Shown in pieces: positions 1-21,120 of a stretch of DNA of 21,422 nt. The notes beneath the pieces are model-generated. The model worked only from the letters and a program-made list of their open reading frames with translations. It searched no databases and had not been told where the DNA came from. The first letter of the stretch is position 1. Each line of letters starts with the position of its first letter. The translations under genes were made by a program, and so were the position numbers. The stretch is from a virus: IMG/VR virus record IMGVR_UViG_3300033388_002089, positions 1-21,422 of that record. One strand, 5' to 3'.

Positions 1-2028
1 CGTGCCAACCGTGAAGTCATTTGACATGGCGCTGGCCGCAATACGAAACACCTTCTGTGGCAGCCACGTGGTTCCAGACCATAGTGCGCCATCGTTGGTG
101 TTTGCACTATCCTGTGTCAGCTCCGACAGCGGGTGAGTGTGCGTGAGTGCAGCCGCGCCTACGTCGGTGTGGCTTATGCCTGCTACCGTGCCACTGAAGG
201 TTGCTGCACCCGCCACCACAATAGACGGCACGTGCAGTTGGTGCGAGAAGGCAAAGCGGTCCTCGCTGTCATCCCACCGAAGGTCGGCCCCGGTGTTGGA
301 GCTGTCCTCGTAGAAGAAGATGGCACCATCGCCATCGCCACCACCGTAGTTGACGTACAAGTTACCCTTGGCAAGTACGTTGCTGTCCCCGAGGATAAAC
401 CCACCAGCCGAAATGCTGCCGTCTGCTTCAATAGCGCCGGTTACGTGGAGCTTGTGTGAGAGGTCAAAGCCGACTTCACTGAGATCCCACCGCAACCATG
501 CGCCCTGGTTCGTGCCGTGCTTGAAATACAGTTGGCTATCACCATCGGACCCTCCGTAGCGCAGATAAGCACTGCCCTGAGAGTAAATCGTGCTAGCCCG
601 TGCATAGCCACCGGGCACTTCAAGGTTGCCATTTGCGATGAGCGTGTCGGCTACTGTCAGGTGCGACACGCTTAGGGTAGCACCTGCCCAATCAGTGATA
701 TGCGTCACCAAGTGGGTGTGTACTGCGGCCGCTTTGCCCGCCAAGGCGTCGAATACGCCGTTGCTCTCCACAATGTTCGTGCTGGCATCCGTTGGCACCA
801 CGTCATACGCTGCCAGCGTGTCTTCTTTGAGGTCCAGCGCCGTATTCATGACCGAAAGGGTCACCATGTTGGCGATATCGGTGTCTGTGACCATGGCTGA
901 GATATCAGCGTTGGTTACCATCGCGGTAATCTCCACGGAAGTCACCATGTTGGCAATATCCGTGTCTGTCACCATCGCAGAGATGTCTGCGGTCGTGACC
1001 ATGGCCGAAATGTCTGCATCTGTGACCATCGCCGCAATATCGGCGTTCGTAACCATGGCAGAGATGTCGCCATCGGTGACATACGTGGTCAAATCAGCAG
1101 TCGTCACCATGCTGGCGATGTCTGCGGTCGTAACCATGGCGGAAATGTCCGCGTCGGTGACCATGGCTGCGATATCGGCGTTTGTCACCATCGCAGCGAT
1201 GTCTGTGTCCGTAACCATGGCCGAAATGTCGGCCGTAGTCACCATTGCGGAGATATCCGCGTTCGTGACCATGGCGGAAATGTCGCCATCTGTCAAATAC
1301 GTGGTCAAATCCGTAGTCGTGACCATGTTCGCGATGTCAGCGTCTGTCACCATGGCTGCAATATCAGCATCTGTGACCATCGCTGCAATATCCGTGGTCG
1401 TCACGACGGGTGGATTGTTCTCAAAACGTGCATTTGTGCCGTTGTAGGCCAGCAATTCGCCGGACGCGGGGCCAGAAATGAACACATCGCTCAAAACGTG
1501 CACCGAATCTGTGGTTTCCACCATGTTTCCGATGTCATTGTCCGTCACATACGTGCTGAGGTCGGTCAATGTGACGTTATTCGTTACTTTTGCCCAGCTA
1601 GTCCCGTTCCATTCAACGCCGTCGCCCGACGAGGGGCTGTCTACTGCCGTGTCGCCAAGGTCTGCTAGGTTCTCAACACCTACAGCCTCCGTCACCGGTT
1701 CCCAAATGGCCTCTGTCGAGTTCCATCCGAGGAGCTGCCCACTCGCCGGGGCAACGGATGACACATCCGTCGAGTCCGAGAGTACGGTATCCTGGGGAGT
1801 CCAGAATTCCCCATCGAATCGCAGGAACTGGCCAACGACTGCGGCTGAGATACCAGCCATGTCGGTCAGATCACTCAGTTCAATTTCGAAAGCGTTAAGT
1901 GCATCGGCCGTGCGCTGGATGTAGGATTGGGCGGTTTGCTCTTCGGCATCCGCATTATTGGGCGTGGTGCCGGACATCGTTTCGGCAGCCTTTGCAAGCG
2001 CTGCAAGTTGTTCCAGCAATTCTTCCAT
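1..2028 (-). CDS. Tail fibre-like protein, partial (C-terminus beyond left edge)
   Basis: The minus-strand frame is open from an ATG at 2028 to base 1 (676 residues seen, no stop). The start has a GGAG ribosome binding site 7 nt upstream. The first 60 residues are helical and Ala/Glu-rich. Blocks with 'WNGT'-type motifs follow (for example SGQLLGWNSTEAIW, GDGVEWNGTSW, SGELLAYNGT). Next come twenty exact 9-residue repeats (about residues 210-389), then phage tail-fibre motifs of the HTH...ITDW and HTHPLSELTQ type, interspersed with beta-rich stretches (YGGSDGDSQLYF, YGGGDGDGAIFF). This combination is typical of trimeric tail fibre or receptor-binding shafts. Inference: it is a structural, late gene read leftward, divergent from the early genes. 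The exact role and the receptor-binding tip are not visible. Its complement contains a long open frame (626-1447), which is an artefact of the repeat. Confidence 0.85.
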   Translation of the reverse strand, partial: MEELLEQLAALAKAAETMSGTTPNNADAEEQTAQSYIQRTADALNAFEIELSDLTDMAGISAAVVGQFLRFDGEFWTPQDTVLSDSTDVSSVAPASGQLLGWNSTEAIWEPVTEAVGVENLADLGDTAVDSPSSGDGVEWNGTSWAKVTNNVTLTDLSTYVTDNDIGNMVETTDSVHVLSDVFISGPASGELLAYNGTNARFENNPPVVTTTDIAAMVTDADIAAMVTDADIANMVTTTDLTTYLTDGDISAMVTNADISAMVTTADISAMVTDTDIAAMVTNADIAAMVTDADISAMVTTADIASMVTTADLTTYVTDGDISAMVTNADIAAMVTDADISAMVTTADISAMVTDTDIANMVTSVEITAMVTNADISAMVTDTDIANMVTLSVMNTALDLKEDTLAAYDVVPTDASTNIVESNGVFDALAGKAAAVHTHLVTHITDWAGATLSVSHLTVADTLIANGNLEVPGGYARASTIYSQGSAYLRYGGSDGDSQLYFKHGTNQGAWLRWDLSEVGFDLSHKLHVTGAIEADGSISAGGFILGDSNVLAKGNLYVNYGGGDGDGAIFFYEDSSNTGADLRWDDSEDRFAFSHQLHVPSIVVAGAATFSGTVAGISHTDVGAAALTHTHPLSELTQDSANTNDGALWSGTTWLPQKVFRIAASAMSNDFTVGT
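862..1401 (-). repeat. Twenty tandem 27-nt / 9-residue repeats in the tail fibre
   Basis: Read on the minus strand, the protein shows 20 consecutive units of consensus T-x-x-D-[IL]-x-x-[MY]-[VL], such as TDADIAAMV, TNADISAMV and TTADLTTYV, with no insertion or deletion (540 nt = 20 x 27). A second level of order is visible. A DLTTY(L/V) unit followed by TDGDISAMV occurs at units 4-5 and again at units 12-13, so eight units (72 residues, 216 nt) form a superrepeat. A degenerate version (LTDLSTYV-TDNDIGNMV) lies farther upstream in the protein. DNA-level divergence is mostly at synonymous positions. A likely role is a repetitive trimeric shaft whose length can change by unequal recombination; this is inference. 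Confidence 0.93.
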
Positions 2029-3381: not shown

Positions 3382-4107
3382 ATGAGTAGTCAGAAGAAAC
3401 AATCGACCTTCGCAAGGAAGCAGAAGGAACAGAAGAGGAAGCTGAGCAACTACTTGAAGCGCTCGGCCATCAAGAGAAGCGTCAAGGAAGTTGGAGGCAT
3501 TGGGCTCCCTTCTAAGATGCCAGGGTACGCGTACGGGTTGTCTGCGGAACTATGTGGTACGGGTGGGAAACTACGAGGAGTGATAGGGAGCGTCTGTGAA
3601 GGATGCTACGCAATGGGGAGCAACTACGCCTATCCGTCCGTCAAGAAGGCGCATGAGGCACGACTGGAAAGCCTGGGTAACCTTGAGAAATGGGTGGACA
3701 ATATGGGGACGATCATGGACTATCTGGGAAGCGTGCTACCCGATGAGGAGCGATGCTGGAGATGGCATGACTCTGGGGACTTACAGGGAATAACGCACCT
3801 GCATGCGATCGTACAGGTAGCGATAAGGAACCCTGGGTGGCGCTTCTGGATCCCGACGAAAGAATACGCCATCGTGAGGAAGTACACGGAAGAACACGCA
3901 ATCCCAGGGAATCTTGCGGTACGAATGTCCGCGCCGATGCTAAATAAGGCATGCCCGGGAGCGCTGAAGGAACTCACGGGATTATACTCCACCGTGGGGC
4001 ACGATGAGGAACAACGGTGCCCAGCGTACGACCAAGAGGGATTCTGCGGAACATGCAGGAAGTGTTGGGACTCATCGGAAGCGTGCACGGACTACCCGAA
4101 GCACTAG
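3382..4107 (+). CDS. GP88-family phage protein (241 aa)
   Basis: The product resembles the 'gene product 88' family (type member from mycobacteriophage L5), whose biochemical role is not established. Diagnostic features in order: a Lys/Arg-rich N-terminus (1-35); KMPG...L-S-A-x-x-C with C58; the C72-x2-C75-Y-A motif; RWHDSGDLQ near residue 130; FWIPTKEY near 160; NLAVRMSA; and a Cys cluster ending in CPAY...CGTCRKCW and a terminal YPKH. The conserved cysteines suggest metal or Fe-S binding; this is inference. It starts at ATG 3382 after AAGGAAGGATGAGGAACA, is full length for the family, and lies in a GGAA-rich segment. It is followed by several very small genes. Confidence 0.85.
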   Translation: MSSQKKQSTFARKQKEQKRKLSNYLKRSAIKRSVKEVGGIGLPSKMPGYAYGLSAELCGTGGKLRGVIGSVCEGCYAMGSNYAYPSVKKAHEARLESLGNLEKWVDNMGTIMDYLGSVLPDEERCWRWHDSGDLQGITHLHAIVQVAIRNPGWRFWIPTKEYAIVRKYTEEHAIPGNLAVRMSAPMLNKACPGALKELTGLYSTVGHDEEQRCPAYDQEGFCGTCRKCWDSSEACTDYPKH

Positions 4108-4734: not shown

Positions 4735-4786
4735 TGTGCATCACAAGAGATAGAGAACGCACACACACACGATGAAAGGAAGAGCG

Positions 4787-6505
4787 ATGCGATTCAAAAG
4801 CAACAACAACCCGCACATGCTGCCCAGGATTCAGTTCCCTGGAAAGTGCCGCACGTGCAAGCAGTCGATCCCTGCCGGATCCCAGGCATACTACCAGGGA
4901 GCCAGCATCCAACGCAAGGCCAGCCTGTGGCACGTGACCTGCTACGAACAAGCCCAGGCCGGGACCGCTGACCAGCCGAACACCTGCGATGGTGGAGCCG
5001 ACCAGGGAGCCGACCAGGGGCAGGACCAGGGAGCCAACCAGGGAGCGGTGCAGGACAACGTGCAGGGTTCCCCGGTGACCCCGACTGACGCCCCGGTCGA
5101 TCAGGCCGATGCCCCGGGCAGTGGTGCCAAGGGTGACGGCCAGCAGGCTGACGGTGACGATGATGGACAGGCCGATGATCAGTCCGATCAAGGCGACGAT
5201 GACCAGCAGGCCGATGACGGCCAGAGCGGAGACAACATGAGCGACCAACCCCCGAAGGCAACCGATCAGGTTTGCCCGATCCTCTTCGACACGGTGAAGC
5301 TGAACAAGCACATGCACCGTGAAGATCTGTATGAGATCCTGCGGGACGGGTTCGGCGGGTACAACCTGTCGGGCTTGAACAAGGGCAAGCTGGCTGACCG
5401 GATCGTCGAGAAGATGACCCTCTGTCGCCAGCAGGAAAGCGACCCCGATCAGGCCGACTCCTACGCCATGAAGCGCAACCAGCGTTCGGTCCTCCGGACG
5501 GACGATGTGCTTCGCCGGGTGCTCAGCGTGACGGGCCGTCCCACCGCTGAGGATACCAACGATACGGCGAGGGCCCAACAGCAGGCCCAGCGTGCCATGG
5601 ACGAAGCGCTCCAGGCCCGGGCCCAGGCAGTGGCTGAAGCGGAAGCCAGGGAGGCCGCTGAGGCTGCCCAGGCCGCCGCCGAAGCTGACGCCGCAGTGGC
5701 TCGCCAGGAGGCCAAGGATGCTGACGGCAAGGTCATCGAGATCAAGCTGCCCGATGGCAAGGCGATCACCCTGGATGGCAAGCACCACACGTTCCCGAAG
5801 CTGGCGCAACTGGTCGCTGCCGGGATCCCGGTCATGCTGGTGGGCCCCGCTGGTGGAGGCAAGACTGAAGCCTGCCGGTCCCTGGCCCTGGACCTTGATC
5901 ACAAGTTCTACCCGCTCAGCCTGGGACCGCAGACCACACAGGCCAGCCTGTTCGGGTACACCGATGCGACCGGCCAGTATGTCCGGACGCCGTTCAGGGA
6001 TGCGTTCGAACACGGCGGGCTGATCCTGCTGGATGAATTCGACCGTTGCAATGAGCGGGTCAGCGTGACCTTGAACGCCGCAGTGGCTCAGCGCTATTGC
6101 TCGTTTCCGGATGGCACTGTGACTGCTCATGTGGACTGCCTGATTGTCGCCGCCGCGAACACCACCGGACACGGTGCGGATCGCCAGTACGTGAGCGCCC
6201 GTCAGCAGGACGCCGCGACCCTGGATCGCTTCGCCGTTCTGGATTGGCAGTACGATGAATCCTTCGAGACGATGTTGACGCTGGCTCAGGGGCTGGACGA
6301 AGCGCTGGCGCTGGACTGGCTCAAGACGGTGCGTGCTGTTCGGGTCCGGGTCGCTGAGCTGGCCCTGCGTTACCTGATCAGTCCCCGCGCTTCGATCCAC
6401 GGCGCGAAGCTGATGGCCGCTGGTGCTGACCGCTCACTGGCTGAGGACACGATCCTGTACCGGGGTTGGAACGCTGAGGACCGCGCCAAGGTGGAGGTCA
6501 AGTAA
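4787..6505 (+). CDS. MoxR-like AAA+ ATPase with N-terminal zinc finger (572 aa)
   Basis: The C-terminal half is a MoxR/CbbQ-type AAA+ ATPase: Walker A GPAGGGKT (353-360), Walker B LILLDEFD (about 412-419), a sensor-1 region AAANTTGHG, and the LDRFAVLDW arginine-finger region. MoxR ATPases remodel target proteins, usually together with a VWA-domain partner. The N-terminus has C21-x2-C24...H49-x2-C52, spaced like a small PARP-type zinc finger. Between them lie a Gln/Gly/Asp-rich disordered acidic linker (about 65-160) and an Ala/Glu/Arg coiled coil (about 270-315). ATG 4787 is preferred over 4772 because AAAGGA lies 6 nt before it, while 4772 follows only a CA run. The gene joins the next one by TAATG. 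A 593-residue antisense frame opposite it reflects codon bias only. Confidence 0.88.
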   Translation: MRFKSNNNPHMLPRIQFPGKCRTCKQSIPAGSQAYYQGASIQRKASLWHVTCYEQAQAGTADQPNTCDGGADQGADQGQDQGANQGAVQDNVQGSPVTPTDAPVDQADAPGSGAKGDGQQADGDDDGQADDQSDQGDDDQQADDGQSGDNMSDQPPKATDQVCPILFDTVKLNKHMHREDLYEILRDGFGGYNLSGLNKGKLADRIVEKMTLCRQQESDPDQADSYAMKRNQRSVLRTDDVLRRVLSVTGRPTAEDTNDTARAQQQAQRAMDEALQARAQAVAEAEAREAAEAAQAAAEADAAVARQEAKDADGKVIEIKLPDGKAITLDGKHHTFPKLAQLVAAGIPVMLVGPAGGGKTEACRSLALDLDHKFYPLSLGPQTTQASLFGYTDATGQYVRTPFRDAFEHGGLILLDEFDRCNERVSVTLNAAVAQRYCSFPDGTVTAHVDCLIVAAANTTGHGADRQYVSARQQDAATLDRFAVLDWQYDESFETMLTLAQGLDEALALDWLKTVRAVRVRVAELALRYLISPRASIHGAKLMAAGADRSLAEDTILYRGWNAEDRAKVEVK

Positions 6506-7341
6506 TGAAATTCGAACTCTTCACCAAGGTCTATGATTGCATCGAAGATTTCGCCCGTGAGGCTGAGAACAGCCCCGGCGCGAACAAGGTTGGAATGGGT
6601 GGCTGGTCCGGTGGAGTCCGGACCGTGGCTGACGCCGCGCAACTGGCGTACACCGGGTGGAGCGAGGGTGCCCAGCGGGCCCAGCGCCTCCGCCTGGAAG
6701 TGCGCGACCGGATCGAGTCCCTGGGTATCGAGGGCATGGAAGCCGTCGAGACCTATGATGTCAGCGGTGCCTACGTGGATGTCGGTGCCTACTGTGAAGG
6801 TGAACCGGAGTGCATGGTGGACTTCGACGAACAGATGATGCCCCGCCAGCGGGTCGCCAGGATCTTCGTCCAGATTAACTACAACGGTGGGATGGACGTG
6901 CCGGAGATCGAGCGCCGGGGTGTGGCAATCAGCGCGGTCGTGGACGCCCTGGAAGTCCATGGCATGCAGTGTGAAGTGTGGGCCGTGGATTGGGTCAGGC
7001 GTGGATACGACCACAAGCCCGCCACGAAGAACGATCCCTGGCCTAGCGTGAAGCGCCATGCGATCTGCGTCAAGAAGGCCGGGCAACTCCTGCCCCTGGA
7101 TCGCATCGCCTATATGTTAGGTCATCCGTCAGCGTTTCGTGGCCTCCTGGCCAGCGTGCGCTACGCGCTCCACGGGTTCACGTTCGGGAGCGCCGATCCG
7201 ATGTCAACTAAGATGCAGGAGCAGAATGAAATGTTCTTCCCCTGCCCGCATGAAGATGAACCGCAATGGTCGAGCGATGACGCCGCGATGGACTGGGTTG
7301 TCGAGACCGTGGACAAATTCGTAACGGAGGTTACCAAATGA
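6505..7341 (+). CDS. Probable MoxR partner protein, VWA-like with degenerate metal site (278 aa)
   Basis: The start overlaps the ATPase stop (TAATG), with GGAGG upstream. The N-terminus has WSGGVRTVADAAQLAYTGWSEG, resembling the N-terminal motif of phage proteins I recall under the label DUF7192, often next to MoxR genes. The central part (about 118-165) reads RIFVQINYNGGMDVPEIERRGVAISAVVDALEVHGMQCEVWAV. It has the strand-loop-RRG-helix-strand order of a VWA domain, but NYNGG stands where DxSGS would bind metal. The family assignment comes from memory and the VWA reading is inference. The likely job is to be the adaptor or substrate partner of the upstream ATPase. The C-terminus is acidic. 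Confidence 0.6.
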   Translation: MKFELFTKVYDCIEDFAREAENSPGANKVGMGGWSGGVRTVADAAQLAYTGWSEGAQRAQRLRLEVRDRIESLGIEGMEAVETYDVSGAYVDVGAYCEGEPECMVDFDEQMMPRQRVARIFVQINYNGGMDVPEIERRGVAISAVVDALEVHGMQCEVWAVDWVRRGYDHKPATKNDPWPSVKRHAICVKKAGQLLPLDRIAYMLGHPSAFRGLLASVRYALHGFTFGSADPMSTKMQEQNEMFFPCPHEDEPQWSSDDAAMDWVVETVDKFVTEVTK

Positions 7342-20195: not shown

Positions 20196-20776
20196 AGCAT
20201 AGCATCGGCATCGACCCAGGGTTGGGCGAGACCGGGCTTGTGCTCTGCACTGAGGACTCACGCAAGGAGCAAGTCCTACACCACTGGCGCACATACTCAT
20301 GCCCCCCGGCGGACAACGCAGACCTGACCCGAGTGGTTAGCTTGGCTTCGTCGGTCGTGGACACGATCATTGGATGGATAGACGAGGAGCACATCACGGA
20401 GTTGGATGTCTGTATCGAACTGCCAGTCTACAAGCACAACGCGCTCACCTACACCAAGCAGATCCGTCTGCTGGAGGAGATCGAGAGCGGGCTGTTCTTC
20501 ACAGCGACTGGCCTGATCGACAAGATGGTCCTGACCGAAGTCTATCCCACTACCAGCAAGACCCTACTCACCAGCAACAGCCGGGCCAAGAAACCAGAGA
20601 TGGTCCGGTGCTTTGAGAAGCTGACTGGCTGGACACTGGACGCACCGAAGGCTACCAAGGAAGCGGTGGCCGACGCTTACGCTCACTCACTGGCTTGCTG
20701 GTTGCACAACGTATCTGGCAACCGGATGAACCTGACGGACATGCACGCAGCAGCCGTCAAAGAACGGAGATCATAA
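20192..20776 (+). CDS. RuvC-like Holliday junction resolvase (194 aa)
   Basis: The RNase H-like fold is shown by D8 (SIGIDPGLGETG), E76 (CIELPVY) and D161 (AVADAYAHSLA), the acidic triad of RuvC. The segment VYPTTSKTLLTSNSRAKKPEM is the substrate-binding region. It resolves branched recombination intermediates before packaging. It starts in an ATGA overlap and joins the next gene by TAATG. Confidence 0.85.
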   Translation: MKHSIGIDPGLGETGLVLCTEDSRKEQVLHHWRTYSCPPADNADLTRVVSLASSVVDTIIGWIDEEHITELDVCIELPVYKHNALTYTKQIRLLEEIESGLFFTATGLIDKMVLTEVYPTTSKTLLTSNSRAKKPEMVRCFEKLTGWTLDAPKATKEAVADAYAHSLACWLHNVSGNRMNLTDMHAAAVKERRS

Positions 20777-21120
20777 TGGCAGACATTGGGCTGAAGGGGC
20801 TGACGGCTGCGGAGTGCAGAGACATCGCAGCGCAGCTTGAGGCCGAGGGGTTCCTGGCCTTGGAGGAGAGGGTGGGGGTCATTCGTGACCCGGCACCTGA
20901 GATGGTAGGGAGCCTACACATTCCGGATCAGGCACAGGTGAAGCCGATCCGAGGCACCGTCGTAATGAAAGGTGAGATGATCGCGTCCGACGTACAGGTT
21001 GGCGACCGGGTTGTCTTTACCAAGTATCGACCCACGTTGATGGAGTTCCCGCTGTTGAGCGGCGACTCGGTGTACGTGGAGTTGATGACAATCTCGGACA
21101 TCTATGTCCGCTGGAGGTAG
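20776..21120 (+). CDS. GroES-like co-chaperonin (114 aa)
   Basis: ATG 20776 has ACGGAGATC and a TAATG overlap; the frame from 20695 lies within the resolvase. Residues about 30-114 match Cpn10: LALEERVGVIRD, a short mobile loop near PEMVGSLHIPDQ, RGTVVMKGE, VQVGDRVVFTKYRPT and a SGDSVYVELMTISDIYV strand series. It likely binds host GroEL to fold phage proteins, as T4 gp31 does. The first 25 residues are an added helical segment. No GroEL is seen here. Confidence 0.82.
   Translation: MADIGLKGLTAAECRDIAAQLEAEGFLALEERVGVIRDPAPEMVGSLHIPDQAQVKPIRGTVVMKGEMIASDVQVGDRVVFTKYRPTLMEFPLLSGDSVYVELMTISDIYVRWR

Follow-up and report, generated by a model that had tools for sequence, protein, structure and literature searches.

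Known MoxR-VWA systems and the analysed locus

In the known partnerships of MoxR-class AAA+ ATPases with VWA proteins, current models let the metal of the MIDAS site hold the target. RavA/ViaA is a general MoxR-VWA partnership acting as a chaperone, CbbQ/CbbO is a rubisco activase, and in the eukaryotic Rea1/midasin system a VWA domain docks on an AAA+ ring whose modules are fused in one chain. NorQ/NorD consists of a MoxR AAA+ protein and a VWA protein, which insert iron into the cytochrome c-dependent nitric oxide reductase. The finger of NorD sits before strand beta-1 of the VWA domain and enters the NorQ pore (PMC9976466, PMC13036017), and the helix-2 insert (H2i) of NorQ touches this finger (PMC13036017). 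NorD proteins with a mutated MIDAS retain NorQ binding and lose their action on the target (PMC9976466, PMC13036017). Among viruses, cobST pairs are widespread in those with tails, and a part in cobalamin synthesis alongside the CobN of the host has been suggested for them (PMC8651126).

Here, we analysed a 21.4-kb stretch of DNA from an uncultured virus (the window), in which a gene for a MoxR-like ATPase is directly followed by a gene of the DUF7192 family (Table 1). The window is a fragment covering part of a genome, and none of the named phages matches it in DNA comparison. The pair is surrounded by a replication module including genes of the GP88 family, Toprim/primase, family A polymerase, gp32-like SSB, Cas4-like exonuclease and DnaB helicase. 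Close to the end of this module lies a gene for a GroES-like co-chaperonin, and the left end of the window carries a degenerate tandem array.

Table 1. Features of the ATPase-DUF7192 locus and its surroundings (positions refer to the window)
Feature	Position	Strand	Basis or remark
Degenerate tandem array	860-1394		27-bp unit, about 20 copies
GP88-family gene, 5' of the pair	3382-4107		PF17338, E 6e-26
AAA+ ATPase gene, MoxR clade by model, phrog_249 / CobS-CbbQ-NorQ type	4772-6505	+	ORF, family and fold matches
CxxC-n-WHxxC zinc-finger-like motif, ATPase N terminus	4847-4942	+	sequence; 4/51 relatives
Acidic low-complexity linker	4958-5266	+	25 D/E against 2 K/R in about 103 aa
AAA_5 domain	5828-6232	+	AAA_5 match, E 4e-13
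Walker A, GPAGGGKT	5843-5866		AAA+ core
Short predicted hairpin between two helices, place of H2i	5957-5983	+	secondary structure of ATPase model
Walker B, LILLDEF	6020-6040		AAA+ core
Ribosome-binding site (GGAGG) and TAATG overlap with the probably coupled start of the DUF7192 gene	6493-6507	+	sequence
DUF7192 gene (PF23822, phrog_1909), putative VWA-fold adaptor with degenerate MIDAS	6505-7341	+	family, fold and profile matches
Most conserved DUF7192 segment, aa 81-104, DVSGAYVDVGAYCEGEPECM, directly 5' of beta-1	6745-6816	+	conservation
QINYNGG, MIDAS-equivalent loop (QINYN or NYNGG for DxSxS)	6871-6891	+	alignment, family motif
Second most conserved DUF7192 segment, aa 198-216 (family form D....F.L.HPSMLRR..F)	7096-7152	+	conservation
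GroES-like co-chaperonin gene (Cpn10)	20695-21120		E 6e-7

An earlier note, made from the letters of this DNA alone, had described a MoxR ATPase with a fused zinc finger and, in a translationally coupled second gene, a VWA-like partner without the DxSxS metal motif. Both reading frames exist, with 577 aa for the ATPase when counted from the ATG at 4772 and 278 aa for the partner. The start at 4787 that the note had used is plausible and probably the true one, as a ribosome-binding site is better placed there, with AAAGGAAGAG immediately 5' of this ATG. The two genes are read in different frames and share a TAATG overlap, in which the ATPase stop (6503-6505) meets the DUF7192 ATG (6505-6507); because of this overlap and the GGAGG at 6493-6497, translational coupling of the two genes is likely, in agreement with the note.

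The ATPase resembles CbbQ and NorQ

The ATPase has an AAA+ core with Walker A and Walker B, and its best phage family is phrog_249 (E 2e-52), which is annotated as 'porphyrin biosynthesis' and includes CobS of cyanophage S-PM2. A structural model was built for the C-terminal 275 residues from 34 aligned relatives (pLDDT 91). The nearest folds are CbbQ and NorQ, at Z about 19-22 over 221-240 residues, with CbbQ as the top single match (Z 21.9), while other AAA+ folds reach a Z of 17 or less. By model comparison the ATPase is thus of the MoxR class and the CobS/CbbQ/NorQ type, and the class named in the earlier note holds. In the place of H2i the model has a short hairpin between two helices, which may be the equivalent of NorQ H2i.

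A different function was suggested for gp128 of mycobacteriophage LeBron, a phrog_249-type ATPase that adjoins the DUF7192 gene gp127: the authors of that study proposed a helicase and reported an HHpred match to MCM6 (PMC13148394). If this extended to the window, the ATPase would be an MCM-like DNA helicase or replication factor and DUF7192 its loader or accessory. The neighbouring genes for primase, polymerase A, SSB and DnaB would suit such a role, and weak MCM matches were obtained here too. However, the fold is nearer to CbbQ and NorQ (Z 19-22) with MCM far down the list, the window already has a DnaB helicase, and no DNA-binding domain is found besides the small finger of a few members, so a helicase appears improbable. 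For gp128-type ATPases, the fold comparison speaks for a remodeller as against a helicase.

The zinc finger and the acidic linker that the earlier note had placed at the N terminus are both present. The linker is rich in D, Q and G, and part of it is a 12-bp tandem repeat (4994-5046). Judged from the sequences of relatives, both elements are local and variable N-terminal additions and not family traits. The finger was therefore dropped as a trait that defines the system, as the motif occurs in only 4 of 51 ATPases; the linker is variable.

DUF7192 as a diverged VWA domain

The second protein matches DUF7192 (E 2e-33) and phrog_1909 (E 3e-36). In a literature search DUF7192 was unmentioned, and no published function for it was found. 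An AlphaFold model based on 47 aligned relatives (pLDDT 84.6, pTM 0.83) runs, from aa 117 onwards, through a strand, a long helix, two strands, two helices, a strand and a helix. In Foldseek against PDB, the top three matches are the VWA domain of NorD in NorQD complexes (best match: E 2.8e-3, prob 0.98), with low TM-scores (0.2-0.3). VIA-align gives NorD VWA at Z 8.7 and 8.0 and Rea1-MIDAS at Z 8.4, values to be read with the proviso that Z near 8 is the edge of the range that unrelated models can reach; the remaining top rows are nearly all VWA/I domains. In the comparison with viral folds, phage CobT and VWA proteins rank next to DUF7192 itself.

Each of these fold matches is modest by itself, and a profile alignment provides independent evidence. 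Using hhalign, we aligned the DUF7192 profile with ten phage and plasmid CobT VWA domains and obtained E 3e-6, a probability of 88% and a score of 48.1 over 73 columns. None of 200 column shuffles attained this score (0/200; maximum 23.5), and the reversed profile gave 18.8. An earlier comparison with four CobT sequences had given only a weak match (E 0.0035, probability 9%), and the match became clear only with the better VWA alignment. Taken together, the NorD and Rea1 fold matches and the CobT profile alignment with its shuffle control make a diverged VWA domain the most likely identity of DUF7192. The ATPase has its best folds in NorQ and CbbQ and the partner in NorD, and these results, found separately, give further support to this reading.

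A fold of the second protein unrelated to VWA was, together with a missing interface, the outcome that the earlier note had named as refuting its proposal; the predicted fold is VWA-like, with NorD VWA and Rea1-MIDAS nearest, and the proposal stands on this point. Of the two families for which the note had called for an HMM search, DUF7192 was matched, whereas a Pfam scan found a VWA family in none of the 47 DUF7192 members. Sequence searches of solved structures with DUF7192 returned chance matches only (PCSK9 prodomain, JetC).

The family also has a longer form. DUF7192 of Rhizobium phage RHph_X2_24 (locus L004, 5129-6274) carries about 100 extra N-terminal residues, starting MTITLTGQTFQHRDRLKQLGGKWNADGRNW, which is possibly a fused target-binding domain.

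The metal motif is degenerate across the family

In CobT, the strand ends in D-x-S-G-S, and DxSGS was found in 11 of 11 CobT sequences compared. The HMM-HMM alignment sets NYNGG of the window protein (6877-6891) on CobT DSSGS, whereas QINYN (6871-6885), which begins two residues before it, agrees better with the strand end and with the motif of the family. The first register is that of the earlier note, and in both registers the Asp is absent from the loop. The commonest form at this place in DUF7192 is N-x-[S/T]-x-S. Among the 47 members the first MIDAS column holds N in 25, S in 5, D in 4, A in 4 and G in 4, and the leading Asp is absent in at least 43. The loss of DxSxS, as judged from these alignments, is a property of the family and not a peculiarity of the window phage. 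VWA folds without MIDAS exist, and the loss limits the claim of a MIDAS-containing VWA, not that of a VWA fold.

The metal site might have been rebuilt, with Asn/Ser/Thr of the loop and T/D from other loops still binding metal. The frequency of N-x-[S/T]-x-S is in line with this, and 4 of the 47 members retain an Asp in one or the other candidate register, so that some DUF7192 proteins may still bind metal. On the other hand, both the Asp and the Ser pair are missing in the window protein and in many other members (QINYN), and the loop is just slightly more conserved than the mean (1.74 bits against 1.51), whereas DxSGS was kept in every CobT sequence compared. We consider a rebuilt site unlikely, with the proviso for the MIDAS Thr/Asp of later loops that residue mapping is reliable only within the 73 aligned DUF7192-CobT columns.

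Conservation is strongest elsewhere. The segment of aa 81-104 reaches 2.56 bits, and it is also the lowest-confidence part of the model (pLDDT 57-64). By analogy of position before beta-1, it may be the equivalent of the NorD finger. A kept finger with a lost MIDAS would be the pattern expected of an adaptor that docks on its motor and holds the target differently.

Occurrence and evolution of the pair

In a search seeded with DUF7192, 62 cases have the ATPase directly 5' (same strand, adjoining). Departures from this order are the second copies in cluster L mycobacteriophages, locus L076 with the ATPase about 0.9 kb 5', and locus L060 with none in the stretch covered; for some cluster L first copies the stretch is too short to show the ATPase, and L007 overlaps and is hence adjacent. 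In the reverse search seeded with the ATPase, 80 loci were taken, the nearest of 433 matches, and 73 of them were long enough to judge. All 73 contain DUF7192 (72 directly 3', one elsewhere), as do 51 of 51 after near-copies were removed, and none of the 73 contains CobT. As the loci are the nearest 80 of 433, the statement on pairing is limited to the window's own branch of phrog_249, within which ATPase and DUF7192 form an obligate pair.

The pair recurs in dozens of unrelated phages, far beyond chance. The named phages that carry it have Mycobacterium, Gordonia, Staphylococcus, Sinorhizobium and Tunturiibacter as hosts; those of Staphylococcus include Kayviruses, and papers on the Kayvirus transcriptome do not name the two genes. 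A pattern search of 84,980 bacterial genomes gave two matches, both MAG contigs with the same ATPase adjoining, and DUF7192 was not found in the plasmids searched. A single-protein scan of viral contigs with the window DUF7192 gave no match, and closer sub-alignments gave matches. The pair is thus found almost only in viruses, in line with the phage-specific machine that the earlier note had suggested.

On the ATPase tree, DUF7192-coupled and VWA/CobT-coupled sets are split by one branch or change (SH-aLRT 98, with long branches and a short search). Cluster L mycobacteriophages have one place for such an ATPase per phage and two DUF7192 genes; the second gene lies several kb from the pair in LeBron (locus L003, 7592-8434) and at the same place in other cluster L phages. 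Other arrangements exist. In Microbacterium phage Cece (locus L084, 3689-8172), a related AAA-ATPase lies directly 5' of rIIA-like and rIIB-like genes, and neither DUF7192 nor CobT was found in this stretch. Phage-plasmid-like 110-kb plasmids of Acinetobacter (L091 and others) carry CobT, an adjoining MoxR ATPase and a sigma factor; here the pair occurs on mobile elements in its canonical version.

These data bear on a viral cobaltochelatase, in which the pair would stand in for CobS and CobT and boost host cobalamin synthesis. The ATPase shares phrog_249 with cyanophage CobS, and the role proposed for phage cobST together with host CobN provides a precedent. However, CobT occurs in no judgeable DUF7192-coupled locus, and the DUF7192-coupled ATPases are set apart from the CobT-coupled ones on the tree. 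DUF7192 lacks the N-terminal part of CobT as well as the MIDAS, and the pair occurs in Kayviruses of Staphylococcus, which is not known to make cobalamin. In the window, itself a fragment, CobN was not found and a profile search for CobT VWA gave no match. Because of the missing CobT, the missing MIDAS and the presence in Staphylococcus phages, a cobalamin role is very unlikely.

Comparison with known systems

NorQ/NorD is alike in the fold of the ATPase, in the VWA fold of the partner (Z 8.0-8.7), in the pairing of the genes and in a loop directly before VWA beta-1. It differs in that DUF7192 has neither DxSxS nor a separate N-terminal target domain and is 278 aa long against about 640 in NorD; moreover, nitric oxide reductase is absent from the window. 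CbbQ is the nearest fold of the ATPase, whereas CbbO has a canonical VWA and another N-terminal part, and the phage pair has no rubisco link. CobS/CobT is alike in the shared PHROG, in the profile alignment and in a conserved stretch at a similar place before beta-1; unlike CobT, DUF7192 is a distinct and shorter family without MIDAS and without the acidic linker of CobT, and its ATPase is on a separate tree branch. Rea1/midasin, the second-best fold of DUF7192, differs in its intact MIDAS besides its eukaryotic origin and fused modules. RavA/ViaA, with a canonical VWA, shares the general partnership and is absent among the nearest fold matches listed, which excludes nothing.

A proposed remodelling machine

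In LeBron, over-expression of gp128 lowered the survival of M. smegmatis more than 1000-fold, while the DUF7192 proteins gp127 and gp120 were not among the toxic genes of this screen, which scored survival without protein levels and in which gp46 was the only gene that could not be tested (PMC13148394). Such a pattern could mean that DUF7192 is a substrate or a regulator (inhibitor or antidote) of a toxic ATPase, as in a toxin-antidote-like pair; NorD does lower uncoupled NorQ activity (PMC9976466). On the other side, one ATPase with two DUF7192 genes in cluster L fits alternative adaptors better, and the strong conservation of the finger-equivalent segment fits docking in either role. On balance, such a role as substrate or regulator seems improbable.

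The reading that we favour, with somewhat more confidence than doubt, is a remodelling machine like NorQD, CbbQO or CobST, in which a MoxR ring and a VWA-fold adaptor dock through the finger and grip the target without a MIDAS metal. It builds on the gene coupling, the MoxR fold, the VWA fold and homology, the loss of DxSxS and the conservation of the finger segment described above. The ATPase would assemble into a hexameric MoxR ring with DUF7192 as its dedicated VWA adaptor. As in NorQD, the loop before beta-1 (aa about 81-116) would enter the pore of the ring and lie against the helix-2 insert, and the C-terminal helix of DUF7192 would rest on the face of the ring. Driven by ATP hydrolysis, the adaptor would be turned or pulled, and the bound target would be deformed as a result. 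With the MIDAS motif lost family-wide, some other surface would have to hold the target, and the conserved HPSxLRR region is a possible candidate.

The position of the genes in a replication module and the toxicity of a cognate ATPase made alone make a host protein a likelier target than a part of the virion. As the LeBron ATPase alone kills Mycobacterium smegmatis, the target may belong to an essential host process. The cluster L phages, with two adaptors for a single motor, suggest that target choice lies with the adaptor. More tentatively, and on this we lean towards doubt, DUF7192 could be a MIDAS-less VWA adaptor specific to viruses which took the place of CobT a single time in the evolution of phage CobS-like ATPases (or the reverse). 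Phages infecting Staphylococcus, Mycobacterium, Gordonia, Rhizobium and numerous uncultured hosts would thereby have gained a dedicated motor for the metal-free remodelling of a host protein, with the two adaptors of cluster L serving two targets.

Meaning for the phage family

Annotated so far as 'porphyrin biosynthesis' and 'unknown', this pair of a ring motor and an adaptor look-alike that has no metal site probably works as a protein-remodelling machine with a new grip on its target. DUF7192/phrog_1909, a widespread phage family, is thereby given a first fold, a partner and a testable role, and these results argue that hundreds of phage ATPases bear a misleading annotation as 'porphyrin biosynthesis'. 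The DUF7192 pair would moreover be a natural test of the role of the MIDAS metal in AAA+/VWA machines, because evolution retained the motor and the VWA fold and dropped the metal motif.
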